DNA from: Fragilaria crotonensis
Lineage: Eukaryota > Bacillariophyta > Fragilariophyceae > Fragilariales > Fragilariaceae
Direction: 5' to 3'
Assembly: GCA_022925895.1 (NCBI GenBank)
Contig: JAKSYS010000263.1
Location: 1-64,000 of the forward strand
Length of the DNA: 64,000 bases
A program made the position numbers and the translations under genes. The first letter of the stretch is position 1. Each line of letters begins with the position of its first letter. Positions 19,877 through 59,925 of this stretch are shown here, piece by piece. The notes under the pieces were generated by a model that saw only the letters and a program-made list of their open reading frames with translations, was not told the origin of the DNA and ran no database searches.

Positions 19877-21840
19877 GATCTAGCAATTGGAATATCAACA
19901 CATCTGATGCTGCTTCCATTACCTTAATTGTACTTAGTCTAAATGCAGTGTTGAGGGGAATGGGTACCGAGCCTGCCTTGATTCTTCAGCAAAGTAGAAA
20001 ACAAGAAGGCCTTTTGGAATGTGGTCCTAAATACTCCTGTCATATTCAATCCATCAAATGGACTTATCAGCACTTTATTGTCTCCCAATGGAGGACACAT
20101 GATGGACATGGCAGTAATGAACTCTTTCTCATCAATCGCAAGGAAAGCATCAATGCATTTCGTCAACTTTGTTCATGCTTCTACAAATGTAGAAACAGCA
20201 AGGCAGTAATAGCTTAAATAATCTTGGTTGGTATGTGATTTCCAATTGAATCAGTGTGATATTGGTTAAGAAGATACTGGAGTATCTACCTCCTTTGTCT
20301 GACATACAAACCATCAACTTAACCCCAGCTGTACCATTCTTCAGAGAGGAGTCAAAAGGTTGGAATGGATATGTTGAGAATTGTGGTGTGCAATTTCATT
20401 GGTGCTTGCTTCCAAAATGAGAAAATATTCTGACATGGTGGCATCACAGCCTCATTATTTAGTTGTGGTTATACATGATACATTCTGTTCTAGGCACAGC
20501 GCCTGCTGGCTGAGCTGTGAACGAAAGACAAATATGTGCCAGCTGGAGGTGAAAAATCATTTTGACTTGCTGTTGGGCTGTTGCTATGCTGGATATACCA
20601 GTGTGAGCTTCATTTTGCTGCCACTTGCTGACAAAACATCTCCCAACAAACAAATCTGACTGCTGCCAGCATGTGCACATGAAAAACATATCTGCTGACA
20701 TGATCTTATGATGAAGCTGACAAGTAAGAAATTTTCCAAGTACGAAACAATATGCCAACAAAAAATCTGCTGTCATCTTCTGACATTTGCTCATGAGACA
20801 CAAATCTGCTAGCCTTCATTGATGTTAAAAAATTGCTGACATTTGCTGAACCTTTCCATATCTACTAACAATGCAACACCTTTGTTAGAGCGTTGTTAAG
20901 CCTCTAATAGTTAGTTCAAATTTAAACTGATAACAGGGCCGCCAGACATTGGCTGGCGCACACATCCTCTATGTCTCGAATTTCAGTCCCAAACCTGCTT
21001 TGCCCCGACGTTCCTGGACCTGCAACCTGCAACACGGTGTAAAATGTACTGTAGGACTGCGCCACTATTGAGTCCTTTTAATCGTCCTGTACAAGTACCA
21101 GTACTACGTACGTTACTCAAGTCTACTCTACCGGTAGCTAGTATGCTGAGACTACTACCGGTAGAGTAGCAGGCACTCAGCTACAACACAATATCGTACT
21201 CCGAGTACTACAGTACGTCTGTGTACCTCAGTATTGCTACAAGGTTGTAGTAGTACCGTTTTGTACCTCGTACCAGGTACTGCACTTGTTTCATCACACT
21301 TCACTCTTCGCCAATTTCGCCTATATGAGCTTTATGCGAACTGCCGGTTGAGGCTTGTAGAGACCTGTCCATGTCACGGTACGCTCACGCCAGCCCATAC
21401 GTTGTACTAAGTCAGCACTGGTCCACTGTGCACTACTGTCACATGACTGCCCACCCAGATCTTCCAGTCATTCCACACATGCCCGCACGTCCACTGTCCA
21501 CTGTCCACTCTCATACGCCCAGCTGTCGCACACCGCATTCGTCATCTTGACCATTAGCGCATGGCGACTACAATTTGCAGTCGTCATTGCTGCTTCATAT
21601 TGCCCCATTCAGATTACGACGTCACGTTTGCTTTCGTGGACACCCAATTGGCAGGGATTTTCAGATGCTGTTCGGATGTCTGATTTGATCCCGCAAGGTG
21701 ACGGAGAGCTATCGTATCGTACCAGTCAGATCCTCGACCAAAAACAAAAAAACTAGAGCATCAACTCGTGTACGTTGTCATATTTTCGTTTTGAACGAGA
21801 TACTCTGAATTGCGACGATCTGGTCGTTCAAATCCGCATC
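19877..21840. other. Intergenic repeat-bearing stretch
   Basis: About 2 kb without a supported gene. 19880-20220 has one plus-strand frame (20021-20209) with no recognised domain. About 20640-20880 contains several degenerate copies of AAATCTGCTGACAT-like words, perhaps another short-repeat array. About 21090-21280 is dense in GTAC motifs, including two copies of CTACCGGTAG-type palindromes (21128, 21158). The rest is unremarkable. Confidence 0.45.
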
Positions 21841-22960: not shown

Positions 22961-23428
22961 AGTATATTATACCTGTCTTATGCATTGTGCAACATTCATG
23001 CCACCGCCTGACAAAATGGAGGACATGCCTACTTCGCCTTTCAGGGATTCTTCGTGTACACTAAGTTTTATCAGAAGACGTATGCCATGTAATGCACCGC
23101 AGGCATGGCGACGCTTTGCCAATAACGGAGGGAAGCCATACGTTTCCCCTTGTAATGCTAAATTTATTACGTTCACCCATTATGCGTTGAGATCGACACC
23201 TGTACCTGCGATGGCCTTACGGAGGTGTGTTCGATGTTTACCTATTCTATGAAACTTCGTGCCGCAAGGTCAGCTTTCTGCACGTGTGACACTGCATGTC
23301 TTGAGTGCTTCAACCCTGCAGAATCATAGCGCACACGTCAAACTTTCATCTTTGTGAGTCAAGCTGTCACGCCAGAAGGACGATACCACTGGTATGACAT
23401 TCGGTAGTTTTTCCTGTATGCAGGACCA
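22961..23428. other. Intergenic, nothing recognised
   Basis: 3' flank of paralog B leading into the nested-repeat cluster. No conserved frame seen. Confidence 0.4.
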
Positions 23429-23907
23429 GGGACATGCGGAAATTCTTCTCAGGACGGAAATAATAACCGTCTTTTGCCGTTGACTGTTTTAAAACCAATG
23501 ATGGATAACGGCAAAATATTTTTGAGCATATCGAAAATGTCAGACTCGCGCTCGTGAGCTTGGCTTGCGCGTTTCCGAAACCTTCTTATGAACGAAGAAT
23601 GTTGAAAGGACCTTCTTCGCCCGAAGAAGCCTGCTTCCTAATCTTCTTCGTGCGAAGAAACCTTCTTCGTTGGATGTCGTTTTCTACTTACGTCATCGAA
23701 GAAGGTGTTCACATAAAGTCTGGTCTGGTACATGTTGCACACTGAACCAACGTAGAATATTTTTGTGTGTGTCACTTCAAAACCTTCTTCGCATGTCTTC
23801 TTCGTCCGAAGTAGGTTTGCAAATCGTCCTCTTCGCTGGAAGCGTGTTGAAGATTTTTGTCTCTCAAATCGTTGTTGGGGTGTGACTGGCGTGCTCGATG
23901 GGAATCT

Positions 23908-24856
23908 GGAGGTTCCGGAATTTCGGCTCTTTTATGTGTCTCATACCTTTCACGCAGATTTTCTACCAGAAATATGTTCGACGAACACCTAAATAATTCC
24001 ACGTTTCAAAATGATAGAATGTCTTCTGTTGAACCACAATAATAAAAACCGTGCTTAAGTTTTGGAACTTTGTTAACATCGTTTGTTATGACAAGTACGA
24101 CATCGATTCAATGTCTTGGATGAACCCTAGTACTATGTAGGGATATTTGGAAAAGACGTTGGCTCTTGAGCCATTGGCTCTTGAGCCATTGGCTCTTGAG
24201 CCAGAGGCTCTTGAGTCATTGGCTCTTGAGTCATTGGCTCTTGAGTCATTGGCTCTTGAGTCATTGGCTCTTGAGCCACTGGCTCAAGAGCCAGTTTACT
24301 TCGTCGAACTAGTCGAGGAACGTGTTTTCCTTAAATGAGAACTCGCCAAACGGGGAACGAAAGAAATGACAGGTCATCTATGGTTGCTATATAGCATTTT
24401 CTGTAAGCATCGGCGAAACAATATTCAAGTATGAAGAGAATACATTGAGCGAATGACAAGCTCTATGACACACAAAAAAGTGTGTTCTTGAGTTTGACTT
24501 CGTCGGGGGCTGTTGTTCAGCCGTTGGCTTTTGAGCCAGCGGCTCTTGAGACAATGGCTCTTGAGCCAGCGGCTCTTGAGACAATGGCTGCCGACACTTC
24601 AAATGTCTTATATCCTTAAGTAGGATTTCATAAGACGTCGATTCCATTGTCGCAAAGTCTAAGCTCAAGTGGGTTCTTTACTTAAAGCTCAAAATTTGTC
24701 ACGTCATGCAATTAATGTACCTAATGATCCGGACATTTGAAGGGGTGATGGAGCGTGGAATATTTGTCCGGCGTGATGAACGAAGTTGTAGAATTAGTAC
24801 TGTATACGTAGCCACTATACACTTAAAGGTAAAAGAGCCGAAATTCCGGAACCTCC
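23908..24856. mobile_element. Inverted-repeat element IR-3 with GGCTCTTGAGCC array
   Basis: The 27-bp terminal repeat begins GGAGGTTCCGGAATTTCGGC (23908-23934) and returns as its exact reverse complement at 24830-24856. The interior holds a tandem array of a 15-bp unit, GGCTCTTGAGCCATT (about 9 copies, 24158-24294, some with TCA for CCA), and a second, inverted cluster at about 24521-24590. The unit is a near-palindrome. It sits inside IR-4. Confidence 0.75.
24158..24294. repeat. Tandem 15-bp near-palindrome array
   Basis: About nine head-to-tail copies of GGCTCTTGAGCCATT with C/T variation (GAGCC or GAGTC), ending with GGCTCAAGAGCC in the opposite sense. It forms the centre of IR-3. Confidence 0.9.
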
Positions 24857-25127
24857 TGAGTACGCAAGATTACCTTCAAGACGTTATGAAATAACGTTGT
24901 AGTAGCCGTTCAATGTATCCAATAACCCCCGAATTGACTGCCGACTAAAGGTTAAGAAGGAATGCCGCATGTCCCAGCGTACTTTGCTTTCAGGAAGGTC
25001 CGGCCCATGCACGTTCCAGCCGTACCGTTAGGGGCAGTTGTATTTGCGCGTCAGCCTTGCTCCGATTTGCATGATGCGAGAATTTTAGCAATCGCAATGA
25101 TCCATCCGAGCCGGCAAGGTTGCTGCA

Positions 25128-25425
25128 TCGTAAGCAAATTTTTCATGACAGTAAGCAAAATCAGTAAGCAAATTATGCCGGTAAGCAAATTTTGTAAGCA
25201 AATTTTTTCTGTAAGCAAATTTGATTTTCGTAAGCAAATTCTTCTTTGCTGTAAGTAAATTTTATTTAGGTGTTTGAAAATTGGTATGTTTTTACGTAGA
25301 AAAGACAGTCCCCGTAAGCAAATTTAATCTCCCAGTAAGCAAATTTTGTAAGCAAATTTCTGCTTACAATAGATTTGCTTATGGTAAGCAAATTCCGTAA
25401 GCAATTTCATTCCGTAAGTAATTTT
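25128..25425. repeat. GTAAGCAAATT interspersed array
   Basis: About 15 copies of GTAAGCAAATT or close variants with short irregular spacers, mostly one orientation, with two reverse copies (TTTGCTTAC, ATTTGCTTAT) near 25365-25380. Spacer lengths are too irregular for CRISPR. Confidence 0.9.
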
Positions 25426-25434
25426 TTTTTCCCA

Positions 25435-26059
25435 GGAAGGTCCGGCCAAAGCACGTTCTAGCCGTTAAGTTCCGGTAACGAAGTCATTTCCGCGCACGCC
25501 GACTTCAAAATACATGTGCTGCGATATTTGTAGCTTTTGCAGTCAATGCAAACGAGCCGGCAAGGTTTTCTGATGCGAAGTGGAAATCCACTTCAGTGAA
25601 GTGGAATTCCACTTCGGGTAAGTGGAATTTCACTTCGGGGAAGTGGAATTCCACTTAGGGGGAGTGGAATTCCACTTAGGGGAAGTGGAATTCCACTTAC
25701 CCGAAGTGAAATGCAATGTTCCCAAAATGAATTCATACTGAATTGTGTAGGCGTCACGTGTGTCCATCGCATTGTGAGGAAGTGGAATTCCACTTCGGGT
25801 AAGTGAAAATCCACTTCGGTGAAGTGGAATTCCACTTCGGGTAAGTGGAATTTCACTTTGGAGAAGTGGAATTTCACTTAGGGGAAGTGGAATTTCACTT
25901 AGGTGAAGTGGAATTTCACTGACTAGGATCCACATGATAATCGCGCCGGCCTTGCTTTTTATCAGTTGAAAATGACATAACGTGGAAGCGAGACTCTTAC
26001 TATGAGGTGTCACGTGTTCTCGTTTTTTCCTCGATTCCGACGGTGCGGCCGGACCTTCC
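25435..26059. mobile_element. Inverted-repeat element IR-2 with AAGTGGAATTCCACTT array
   Basis: A 13-bp terminal repeat GGAAGGTCCGGCC at 25435-25447 and its exact inverse at 26047-26059. The left subterminal block (CACGTTCTAGCCGTTAAG, GAGCCGGCAAGGTT) is homologous to the same block of IR-1, so IR-1 and IR-2 belong to one family. The centre is an array of the perfect 16-bp palindrome AAGTGGAATTCCACTT separated by short CGGGTA/AGGGGA spacers. It lies inside the GTAAGCAAATT array of IR-1. Confidence 0.75.
25575..25920. repeat. Array of 16-bp perfect palindromes
   Basis: About a dozen copies of AAGTGGAATTCCACTT (and variants GAAATCCAC, GGAATTTCAC) every 20-24 bp in two blocks (25575-25703 and 25779-25920), divided by about 75 bp of unrelated DNA. 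Each unit can form a hairpin. Confidence 0.92.
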
Positions 26060-26327
26060 AGTAAGCAAATTTTCTTACAGACGTCAGCCGTGTCACCACC
26101 ACGCCGGCACATCCAATTTTGCGCCAGCCAGACATCGATCGGAACTTGTTTCCCTCCCGGCGGGCGCGCATACTTCCTTTATTCAGGACTTCGCCCGTAT
26201 TGCCGGACCTTCCTGGGTAGACTCTACTACTGTACCCTAGTAGAGAGTAGAAGTCTCGACTCTACTAGGAAGAGCAAAAACAGACTGGAGTACCTTTGGT
26301 ACTTGTACTCCTAGCTAGTACCTGGTA

Positions 26328-53836: not shown

Positions 53837-55453
53837 CTACTCAACATCGTCGAGCGAGTTCGATGCATCCTCTTTCGCAAGCTCCCAATCAAGAAACTTA
53901 ATGATCTCTCGGAGCTCCTTCATCTCATCGACCCGGCTGATCGGCATGGAGGCGCTTGGACTGTTCTGCATCTCGCCAAACCTATGCGTGTCAATTGGTA
54001 AACATGGCATGGAGGAACGGCGCATTGGCGATGGCTCAAGCATGCAGGAGATCGTTGAGCCATAATATTGATCCCGTTCCTCTTCAGTAGCAATTATGGC
54101 AGAGAATGGTTCACTGGGCTTAACCATGCCAGAGACCATTGAGACACGAGACTTATCACTTTCGTCTTCGGTCGGGTTTGCATCACGACATAACATGGCC
54201 ATAAACGCCGTAACATTTCCACCGTCCATCCAGGCGTCATTGCCTCCTGGCCCTCCGTACGCGACGGGTTCTATAAAACCAGCAGGATTAGAGCAATCAG
54301 CTCCGAAGGACGACAATAGAGGCACAGAGGACGACGATTGCCCGGGATGGCAGGTTGTCACCTCCGGCAAGGAGAAACGACCTCCCATAATATCTAGAAG
54401 GCTCATTGGAAGTGAAGTGCCCTTCTCTGACACCTCTTCTGACTCCTCTGATCCTTCAACGGGTGGAAACGAGGCGAAGGCAGGCACGGACACGCGGCGA
54501 GGTCCTGCGTGTAGCGGAGGAACCGAGGACAACGATGGTTCATGGTGGCGGGTTGTCGCTTCTCCTTGACGCATCATGCTCCCTTGAAGGCTCATTGCCA
54601 GCGAAGCGCTCTTGTGTAAGTCCTCCGATCCTTGAACGAGAGGAGATGAGGAGAAAGTATGCATGGACATACGGCGAGGTCCTGCGCCCAAGGGCGGAAC
54701 AGAGGACAATGATAGCCCGTGATGGCAGGAAGTAATTTCTCCTTGACGCCCTTCGCTACCATGAAGGCTCATTGGCAACGAAGCGCTCTTTCCTGACTGC
54801 GCTGATCCTTCAACGAGAGATGAGGTAAAAGTAGGCATAGACATGCGGCGAGGTTCTGCAAATAGAGCAGCATTTTGAAGCTGGGCCTGCATCATCAGTC
54901 GTGCTTCAACCTCATGTCGTTGAACTGAGAGGCTACCACTCAAATTTGGGTCCGGCTTGTTCTGAGCGACCAAGGAAGGAAGTGGTGTCAGGACGTAATC
55001 CCCTGAGGCCATGATGTGCTGTTGTTGATGGGCAATCAACTTCTTCAAATCGAGTTTGCTTTGAGCTTTCCACTGTGAAAGAGCCATTCTGTAGCGCCTT
55101 TTCTCATGGACAGCCTCCTCGTCGAATTGCTTTCGGTCGTTGACATCGAGAGCGTTCCATTTGGCCGAGATTTCCTTGGCCATATCGGAAAACCCGAGCT
55201 TGCGTTTTGCCTTAACAAGCTTCGCGCGTTCCGACCTGAAGAAAGATTGTACGCTGTAAGGGAGCGCTTCGGTTTGCGGTTTACTCTCGCGCATGGACAT
55301 GCTACGTTGAAGCTCGGCCACATATTCGAAATATCTCTTGATCATGCGATTCACTCCTATAGTGTCGTTTGAGGACGAATCTAGCTGCAGAACCCTGTCC
55401 ATAGTCTGTATTAGAGGAGCGATTGTTCGTCCTCGTTCCAGCCTTGGTGGCAC
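53837..55453 (-). CDS. HMG-box protein with internal repeats
   Basis: Predicted DNA-binding HMG-box protein, nuclear. 538 codons, intact. The HMG box is at about residues 64-131 (LPYSVQSFFRSERAKLVKAK, GFSDMAKEISAKWNALD, DRKQFDEEAVHEKRRYRMAL), followed by a Gln/His-rich stretch. About residues 200-345 hold three diverged copies of a 55-residue repeat starting PRRMSMPTF / PRRMSMHTF / PRRVSVPAF and containing LPMSL and HHxxSLSSVPPL. The R-R-x-S-x pattern in each is a possible phosphorylation site. The C-terminal part is disordered except for a final helix (EMKELREIIKFLDWELAKED). Diatoms have expanded single-HMG families with such tails. The target genes are unknown. Confidence 0.85.
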   Translation of the reverse strand: MPPRLERGRTIAPLIQTMDRVLQLDSSSNDTIGVNRMIKRYFEYVAELQRSMSMRESKPQTEALPYSVQSFFRSERAKLVKAKRKLGFSDMAKEISAKWNALDVNDRKQFDEEAVHEKRRYRMALSQWKAQSKLDLKKLIAHQQQHIMASGDYVLTPLPSLVAQNKPDPNLSGSLSVQRHEVEARLMMQAQLQNAALFAEPRRMSMPTFTSSLVEGSAQSGKSASLPMSLHGSEGRQGEITSCHHGLSLSSVPPLGAGPRRMSMHTFSSSPLVQGSEDLHKSASLAMSLQGSMMRQGEATTRHHEPSLSSVPPLHAGPRRVSVPAFASFPPVEGSEESEEVSEKGTSLPMSLLDIMGGRFSLPEVTTCHPGQSSSSVPLLSSFGADCSNPAGFIEPVAYGGPGGNDAWMDGGNVTAFMAMLCRDANPTEDESDKSRVSMVSGMVKPSEPFSAIIATEEERDQYYGSTISCMLEPSPMRRSSMPCLPIDTHRFGEMQNSPSASMPISRVDEMKELREIIKFLDWELAKEDASNSLDDVE

Positions 55454-59641: not shown

Positions 59642-59677
59642 GTGATACGTGATACGTGATACGTGATACGTGATACT

Positions 59678-59925
59678 TGCTACTAGTACTTGCTACTAGT
59701 ACTTGCTACTAGTACTTGCTACTAGTACTTGCTACTAGTACTTGCTACTAGTACTTGCTACTAGTACTTGCTTCTAGTACTTGCTACTAGTACTTGCTAC
59801 TAGTACTTGCTACTAGTACTTGCTACTAGTACTTGCTACTAGTACTTGCTACTAGTACTTGCTACTTGCTACTTGCTACTTGTACTTGTTACTTGATACT
59901 TGATACTTGATACTTGATACAGCCC
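59678..59925. repeat. 13-bp minisatellite TTGCTACTAGTAC
   Basis: About 14 tandem copies of TTGCTACTAGTAC (one with TTGCTTCTAGTAC) from 59678 to about 59865, then the shorter TTGCTAC and TTGATAC units to about 59925. Preceded by a five-unit GTGATAC microsatellite (59642-59676). The unit contains the CTAGTAC word that is common at gene borders here. Confidence 0.93.

Follow-up and report, generated by a model that had tools for sequence, protein, structure and literature searches.

Nested miniature elements, probably of the PIF/Harbinger class, with family-specific arrays of short words in a contig of Fragilaria crotonensis

The window analysed here is the 64,000-nucleotide stretch at positions 1 to 64,000 (forward strand) of contig JAKSYS010000263.1 (assembly GCA_022925895.1, Fragilaria crotonensis). 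It holds, at 23427-26215, four inverted-repeat elements in two nested pairs, as an earlier note made from the sequence alone had described. They are named A (IR-4 of that note), B (IR-3), C (IR-1) and D (IR-2); B lies inside A and D inside C, and E, F and G are further families. Labels such as C733 and C317 denote contigs, L-numbers denote fetched loci and coordinates without a prefix refer to the window. Each element carries internal arrays of a short word, and the origin and likely function of these arrays are the subject of this report.

Results

Layout of the nest

Element boundaries were placed by comparing copies with different flanks, in which the ends are bordered by 3-bp duplications of CAG or CTG and, once, of CCG (the D copy at L072). 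The features are as follows.

23427..24977, + strand: element A (IR-4), CAG 23427-23429 and CAG 24975-24977, ends GGACATGCGG; interrupted by B
23581..23840, no strand: A arrays, TTCTTCG / CGAAGAA half-words in two blocks
23906..24858, - strand (label arbitrary): element B (IR-3), CTG 23906-23908 and CTG 24856-24858, ends GAGGTTCCGGAATTTCGGCTCTTTTA; within A
24159..24293, no strand: B array 1, 15-bp unit TTGGCTCTTGAGCCA, 9 units
24525..24589, no strand: B array 2, unit as in B array 1 (TTGGCTCTTGAGCCA), 4 units
24991..26215, + strand: element C (IR-1), CAG 24991-24993 and CTG 26213-26215 (mismatched), ends GAAGGTCCGGC; interrupted by D
25108..25119 in C and 25554-25565 in D, + strand: subterminal block GAGCCGGCAAGG (genome count below)
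25130..25432, + strand: C array, GTAAGCAAATT words at irregular spacing, unique centre; last word 26061-26071, past D
25433..26061, + strand: element D (IR-2), CAG 25433-25435 and CAG 26059-26061, ends GAAGGTCCGGCC; within C
25577..25705, no strand: D array 1, 21-bp unit AAGTGGAATTCCACTT + 5-bp spacer
25778..25921, no strand: D array 2, unit as in D array 1 (AAGTGGAATTCCACTT)

The target-duplication boundaries leave 13 bp between the two nested pairs, not the 15 bp given earlier. Net of inserts, three of the four elements do lie near 600 bp (A ~595, C ~593 and D ~623 bp), and B measures 947 bp. C and D have a common type of end, GAAGGTCCGGC, referred to below as GAAGG ends, which confirms the relation between IR-1 and IR-2 that the note had read. 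The subterminal block GAGCCGGCAAGG has 149 exact copies in the genome, with 4 for the reversed-pattern control. The B ends, whose boundaries were set from copy comparison, are GAGGTTCCGG. When CWG (CAG or CTG) is counted as duplication, the first bases of the ends are GGA, GAG and GAA. The flanking triplets of the window copies match for A, B and D and are mismatched for C (CAG left, CTG right).

A second whole nest, on contig C733 (L065), is 99.0% identical to the window across 6.8 kb. Since the match extends through both flanks, it represents an allele or haplotig rather than a second, independent nest. The empty site of B appears as a single CTG in three A copies (L059-L061), the other three copies not matching the search string, and D is absent at the corresponding site from 16 uninterrupted C copies.

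Copies and target duplications

The genome surveyed comprises 62.1 Mb in 881 contigs. Exact ends number 36 for A, 282 for B and 422 for the GAAGG type (212 in the CAG form and 210 in the CTG form), with reversed-pattern controls of 0, 0, 0 and 1; the patterns demanded CAG, CTG or CWG, and ends beside other triplets would be missed. Identical CWG triplets stand on both sides in 29 of 31 B end pairs closer than 1.5 kb (facing adjacent ends, from 100 of the 282 B ends), in 60 of 63 GAAGG pairs closer than 1.5 kb (196 of 422 ends, rows past C295 being dropped so that the CAG and CTG lists cover equal contigs) and in all three A pairs closer than 12 kb (all 36 A ends). All four elements belong to multi-copy families that insert at CWG with a 3-bp duplication.

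The anatomy is that of miniature inverted-repeat transposable elements (MITEs), and the description of non-autonomous inverted-repeat transposons with internal arrays is borne out. The elements are ~600-950 bp long and have inverted ends, and each family has between 6 and 28 matches among the loci compared. No coding capacity is seen in them, judged by length and the list of open reading frames (ORFs), which includes one 160-aa frame spanning D and C. Target-site duplication is documented by the pair counts, the window's own C copy being mismatched (CAG/CTG).

Core arrays within and between families

The earlier note had suggested that related ends carry unrelated cores, as if the core were replaced or generated anew in each copy. 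For comparison, loci were selected by match to the elements or to the GAAGG end, and the haplotig L065 was left out. B copies align over the whole element (11 loci, 78-95%) and D copies through the core (8 loci at 91-99% and 5 more at 76-79%). For the 5' part of C with its array, counting only matches that span half the query or more, 27 loci give 28 matches (72-99%), and the corresponding part of A matches 6 other loci at 95-98%. The core array is a family character and is not made anew per copy; because the copies of each family align through the core, core replacement at the level of the copy fails. At family level this is the outcome that the note had named as refuting its idea.

Array size is a different matter. 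Over 13 B copies the first block holds 2 to 11 units and the second 2 to 4, while the 245-bp step between the blocks is kept in 9 of the 13. Arrays differ between haplotypes, since B array 1 has 9 units in the window and 11 on the C733 haplotype. Length differences within D and its subfamily D2 run in 21-bp steps, the D2 copy L036 has one unit left on its 5' side and the C relative L030 has an array reduced to 2 words. L036 was also considered as a mosaic of E and D2; on re-alignment it proved a plain D2 copy.

When 33 elements selected for reading were clustered, they fell into the groups B, C, D, E, F and G (L042). GAAGG ends combined with a different array and centre are seen in at least five families (C, D, E, F and G). 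The E, F and G copies lie outside the window, save for an F-like relic at 20542-20858 that is ~67% identical to the F family, carries TCTGCTGAC words and is a fifth element of the group in the window.

Array words and their constraint

In one copy each and at no more than one mismatch, the B array has 10 matches to GGCTCTTGAGCC, the C array 16 to GTAAGCAAATT and the D array 24 to GTGGAATTCCAC, a perfect palindrome that is counted on both strands and so represents ~12 sites. The A array has 10 exact TTCTTCG half-words in the uninterrupted copy L060 (shuffle mean 0.26). Dinucleotide-shuffle means for the words of A, B, C and D are 0.00 to 0.26, so the arrays stand far above shuffle. The claim that each core is built on a short palindromic word is nevertheless too broad, as the C word GTAAGCAAATT is not itself a palindrome and recurs mostly in a single orientation. 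The C words start 13 to 63 bp apart and their spacers are unrelated. By eye, parts of the words can also be made out in the window copies at both ends of B (GGCTCTT) and at both ends of A (CTTCT).

The word GTMAGYRRAWTT, i.e. GT(A/C)AG(C/T)RRAWTT, occurs 16 times in C, 13 in D, 24 in D2, 12 in E, 8 in F and 16 in G (no more than one mismatch, both strands, one copy each). It is found 0 times in A and in B; shuffle means are 0.03 to 0.20. The background in the window outside the nest and the relic is 0.087 per kb (5 in 57.5 kb). GTMAGYRRAWTT was defined with the sequences of C, D, E, F and G already in view. Among 13 stretches not used in its definition, 11 have 2 to 14 matches and 2 have none (L037 and L023), though this is only a partial hold-out, most of the 13 belonging to the defining families. 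The C and D array words are variants of GTMAGYRRAWTT, which is common to five array-bearing GAAGG families. Hence the ends of C and D are shared and their arrays and centres visibly differ, as the note had it, but their words are not unrelated, and the variable-core observation survives as the divergence of one word among the GAAGG families.

Comparison of D with D2 separates word from spacer. The 16-bp palindrome is 91.7% identical between the two and the 5-bp spacer 35.5%; within D the values are 92.5% and 64.0%, and within D2 91.2% and 84.9% (11 and 10 inner units, one copy of each subfamily). The palindrome was kept while the spacers of D and D2 changed together along the array. The E and D2 arrays (L009, L040) also carry GTAAG / CTGAC words, which we take to resemble the 5' splice-site and branch-point consensus.

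Large relatives of A and B

At least 150 DDE_Tnp_4 matches are present in the genome, where 150 of 333 candidates were scored. Two large spans with A-like halves on both sides, on C687 (12.7 kb) and C317 (17.2 kb), hold a Harbinger-type DDE match, the A ends at C317:61930 and C687:18093 lying ~0.9 kb before the DDE_Tnp_4 matches. Locus L090 (C687:18070-19000) reads CAG, A end, A-like array and then transposase exons split by an intron-like gap; its array is 75% identical to the A array over 205 bp (E 3.5e-37). Stretches 68-69% identical to the 3' half of MITE A lie at C317:78834-79102, C687:30533-30795 and C55:29844-30110, and the right end on C317 is followed by CTG, equal to its left CTG. 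Because its relatives match it at both sides, A looks like the two ends of a large element joined by loss of the middle.

The A transposase fragment gives 17 matches on 14 contigs, its own two included. One of these, at C41:90336-90563, is 46% identical to it and is enclosed by B ends 8.0 kb apart with CAG on both sides (C41:88159-96194); C41 has no DDE_Tnp_4 match among the 150 scored of 333 candidates. A transposase of the PIF/Harbinger type is in this way associated with A (C317, C687) and, as the C41 fragment, with B. For the second ORF of NuwaI elements (Myb/SANT, PF13837) no match was obtained in the genome, but control genomes likewise gave none.

Candidate parents with GAAGG ends

Several candidates for a coding parent of C and D were rejected. 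L089 (C228:25100-29100) proved to be another kind of Harbinger that had inserted in a C copy. It has a 437-aa DDE_Tnp_4 ORF and, on the opposite strand, a 532-aa ORF for which Pfam gives no confident match; it lies in the array of that copy at CAGTAA, its ends differ from GAAGG and its target is probably TAA (left junction only). At L018, an F-like 3' end (92% over 86 bp) adjoins an insert that is taken for a retrotransposon: its coding part is repetitive, with at least 150 matches for the family and frames as long as 1,095 aa. The ends on C196 and C179 pair at 1,004 and 595 bp. A further candidate position, C164:18499, lies near a DDE match. ORFs beside unpaired ends are ordinary genes (guanylate cyclase, RCC1, kinase) adjoining a micro-MITE of ~85 bp. 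This micro-MITE has GAAGGTCCGG ends and CAG flanks and occurs at L011, L012, L020, L037, L038 (beside the end at ~1503 or 2002) and L017:3644-3727; it lies near ordinary genes in L011, L020 and L037.

L023 and L029 are long, AT-rich GAAGG-ended elements, 79% alike over ~870 bp and without mutual match thereafter. One frame of L029 may be Mutator-like; none of six L029 ORFs has a Pfam match above cut-off.

Other features of the window

The window also contains a 13-bp tandem array, TACTTGCTACTAG, of 18.8 copies (59674-59920) and a 177-bp repeat of 2.4 copies (54442-54859) overlapping an ORF with an HMG box. An FTO-type gene is present as well and may point to a marine alga.

Discussion

We consider it likely that the elements are MITEs of the PIF/Harbinger class (PHIS, PIF/Harbinger-ISL2EU-Spy), that their parents bore the arrays between inverted repeat and transposase gene, and that the arrays are docking sites. 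A is a Harbinger-derived MITE. B is very probably one, and C and D probably are, to judge from their CWG duplications and anatomy. A parent would carry an array of its family-specific short word between the terminal inverted repeat and the transposase gene. This placement is seen directly for A, whereas for B what is seen is a transposase fragment inside a B-ended span. In the MITE the coding middle would have been lost, leaving two subterminal arrays close together around a short unique centre; they look like one core because the middle is gone. At the arrays, the transposase or an accessory DNA-binding protein would dock at several sites, so that each family would have an address of its own. 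Slippage or gap repair may add and remove array units, which may also be homogenised, and the word would diverge jointly with its binding protein when lineages separate.

The transposase of Galileo binds tandem repeats in the ends of that element (PMC3688188), and by analogy the arrays are most likely putative family-specific protein-binding sites. Multiple transposase binding sites in near-end repeats, as in Galileo and Foldback-like elements, are the mechanism proposed here and the nearest experimental precedent; Galileo differs in belonging to the P superfamily and in having long inverted repeats, and homology is not claimed (PMC3688188).

Several observations weigh against this reading. 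No coding parent was found for the GAAGG ends among the contigs cross-checked (to ~C307) and a genome-wide subset of 20 hits, and the six ORFs of the long GAAGG-ended element L029 match no Pfam family above cut-off. GTMAGYRRAWTT is missing from the GAAGG-ended micro-MITE (L037) and from L023 over its first 867 bp. Only C41, out of four listed contigs with a transposase match, has a B pair around the match; C155 has one B end 5.5 kb from it, and C80 and C140 have none among the B ends listed. The array was read in one large relative, L090 on C687, and is degenerate there, with 2 exact TTCTTCG. At 12.7 and 17.2 kb, the A spans are longer than the NuwaI average of ~4.5 kb; they may contain nested inserts, or C687 may represent two separate copies. 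Finally, the site of D in C is not simple. At this site 15 of 16 uninterrupted C copies read CGCTG and one CGATG, whereas in the window CCCAG precedes D and CAG follows (25425-25435, 26059-26071). CTG is the triplet in 15 of 16 copies and CAG stands on both sides here, so that the uninterrupted copies do not reveal the pre-insertion triplet of the window copy. Either this C copy had changed at the D site or D arrived by another route.

The most serious rival, unlikely as we judge it, is that the arrays are functionless tandem repeats, produced by slippage or abortive gap repair and copied along with the element. Variation in unit number among copies and between haplotypes (B, 9 and 11), the single 5' unit of L036 and the 21-bp length steps of D and D2 would all follow from it. 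It also has a precedent in the Medicago Harbinger subfamily MtPH-A6-4, whose subterminal tandem repeats vary in number and were linked by the authors to abortive gap repair (PMC2213677); it is this link that makes neutral turnover a serious alternative. Those repeats are of 60 bp with a triplicated 12-bp motif and belong to one subfamily (PMC2213677), whereas the words here are of 12-21 bp, palindromic or half-palindromic, and occur in several families with a different word per end type. Plain duplication of units does not account well for C and A words that stand at irregular spacing among unrelated spacers, for an identity of 0.917 in the D-D2 word against 0.355 in the spacer, or for one word common to five array-bearing families with the same ends.

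A less probable alternative is that the arrays are promoter or enhancer sites for transcription of the transposase. The L090 array does lie between the end and the transposase exons, and palindromes suit dimeric factors. MITEs, however, retain their arrays on either side although they have no gene, and in the large A relatives the array-bearing 3' half of the MITE has a counterpart at the 3' side as well.

The earlier note also raised the idea that the arrays are the insertion target of the next element, and that they are preferred landing pads now seems very unlikely. Four of seven mapped nested inserts do fall in arrays: C arrays hold D, a CACTA-ended insert (L031) and the Harbinger of L089, and an F array holds a C copy (L025). 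This is no excess, because arrays fill about half of each element, and the other three inserts lie outside them (B in A, that of L026 in E and that of L018 in an F-like copy). These loci were picked by matching ends and not at random. CWG density is high in the E and F arrays (0.076 and 0.093) and slightly above the window-wide 0.032 in B array 2 (0.042), but low in D (0.007) and not raised in C (0.022), A (0.019) or B array 1 (0.022). The insert at L031:1694-2303 is ~610 bp long with CACTACAGACCTTT inverted ends (CACTA-like).

Still more improbable is a core replaced or newly generated in each copy while the ends are kept. The existence of at least five families with common ends but different array and centre would fit, yet copies within each family keep the core and the array words of same-end families are variants of one word, for which divergence by descent suffices. 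Core exchange between families may have occurred over longer times.

That the elements are of Helitron/Helentron type with central repeats, like Pearl or DINE-1, can practically be dismissed: the layout of flanks around an internal array is similar, but the reading is refuted for A by its DDE relative, and the inverted ends and symmetric 3-bp duplications argue likewise for the others. Helitrons and Helentrons (HINE) have no target duplication and no full inverted ends, and depend on a Rep/Hel partner. Here symmetric CWG duplications and inverted ends are present, and no CWG duplication is, to our knowledge, known for Pearl, HINE or DINE-1. The comparison with Pearl and DINE made in the earlier note therefore joins different classes: those elements, Helentron rolling-circle derivatives, share short arrays between conserved flanks with ours, and one Cg_HINE group also has related flanks with unrelated repeats (PMC7492417; PMC4067079).

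The closest described group is NuwaI of the PHIS elements, defined by CWG duplications and found only in animals (16 genomes, 2015; PMC4482050). The likeness lies in the 5'-CWG-3' duplication, in inverted ends starting with G and in the DDE_Tnp_4-type match of the large A relatives (PMC4482050). The duplication itself is supported here by the pair counts, one D copy with CCG (L072) being the exception. NuwaI ends usually start with GGG, a difference from the GGA, GAG and GAA found here that 'usually' keeps from being strictly defining; autonomous NuwaI elements average ~4.5 kb, against spans of 8.0-17.2 kb; and subterminal arrays are not mentioned for NuwaI in the accessible text (PMC4482050). 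All four elements are NuwaI-like rather than NuwaI. Beyond that paper, only the Spy transposon report PMC11304231 is of this kind among the matches listed, and none else listed has CWG except as author initials (PMC12595863), in a search that mostly did not extend to subscription literature.

Tourist-type MITEs such as mPing are likewise short and of the Harbinger class, are mobilised in trans and have internal sequence that affects mobility (PMC9921582). The PIF/Harbinger target is TWA (PMC4482050), unlike the CWG seen here, and word arrays are unmentioned for mPing in the accessible text (PMC9921582). The SIRC elements of Arabidopsis resemble the C array but are described as independent elements that have lost their inverted ends (PMC10342631).

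These elements bear on the question of how a transposase tells its own MITEs from the many others whose short ends are similar. This one genome offers families with shared or different ends, related array words and at least one large relative, so that swaps could separate the effects of end and array. If the host is an alga, Harbingers of the CWG type would be extended beyond animals. We tentatively put forward, as a possibility that goes further than the classification itself, a radiation of CWG-inserting Harbingers, perhaps outside animals, in which the word of each lineage flanks the transposase gene as an address for its own DNA-binding protein. Concerted turnover of the arrays would make word and protein co-evolve and bar cross-mobilisation of MITEs, and the GTMAGYRRAWTT variants of the GAAGG families would be successive versions of such an address.

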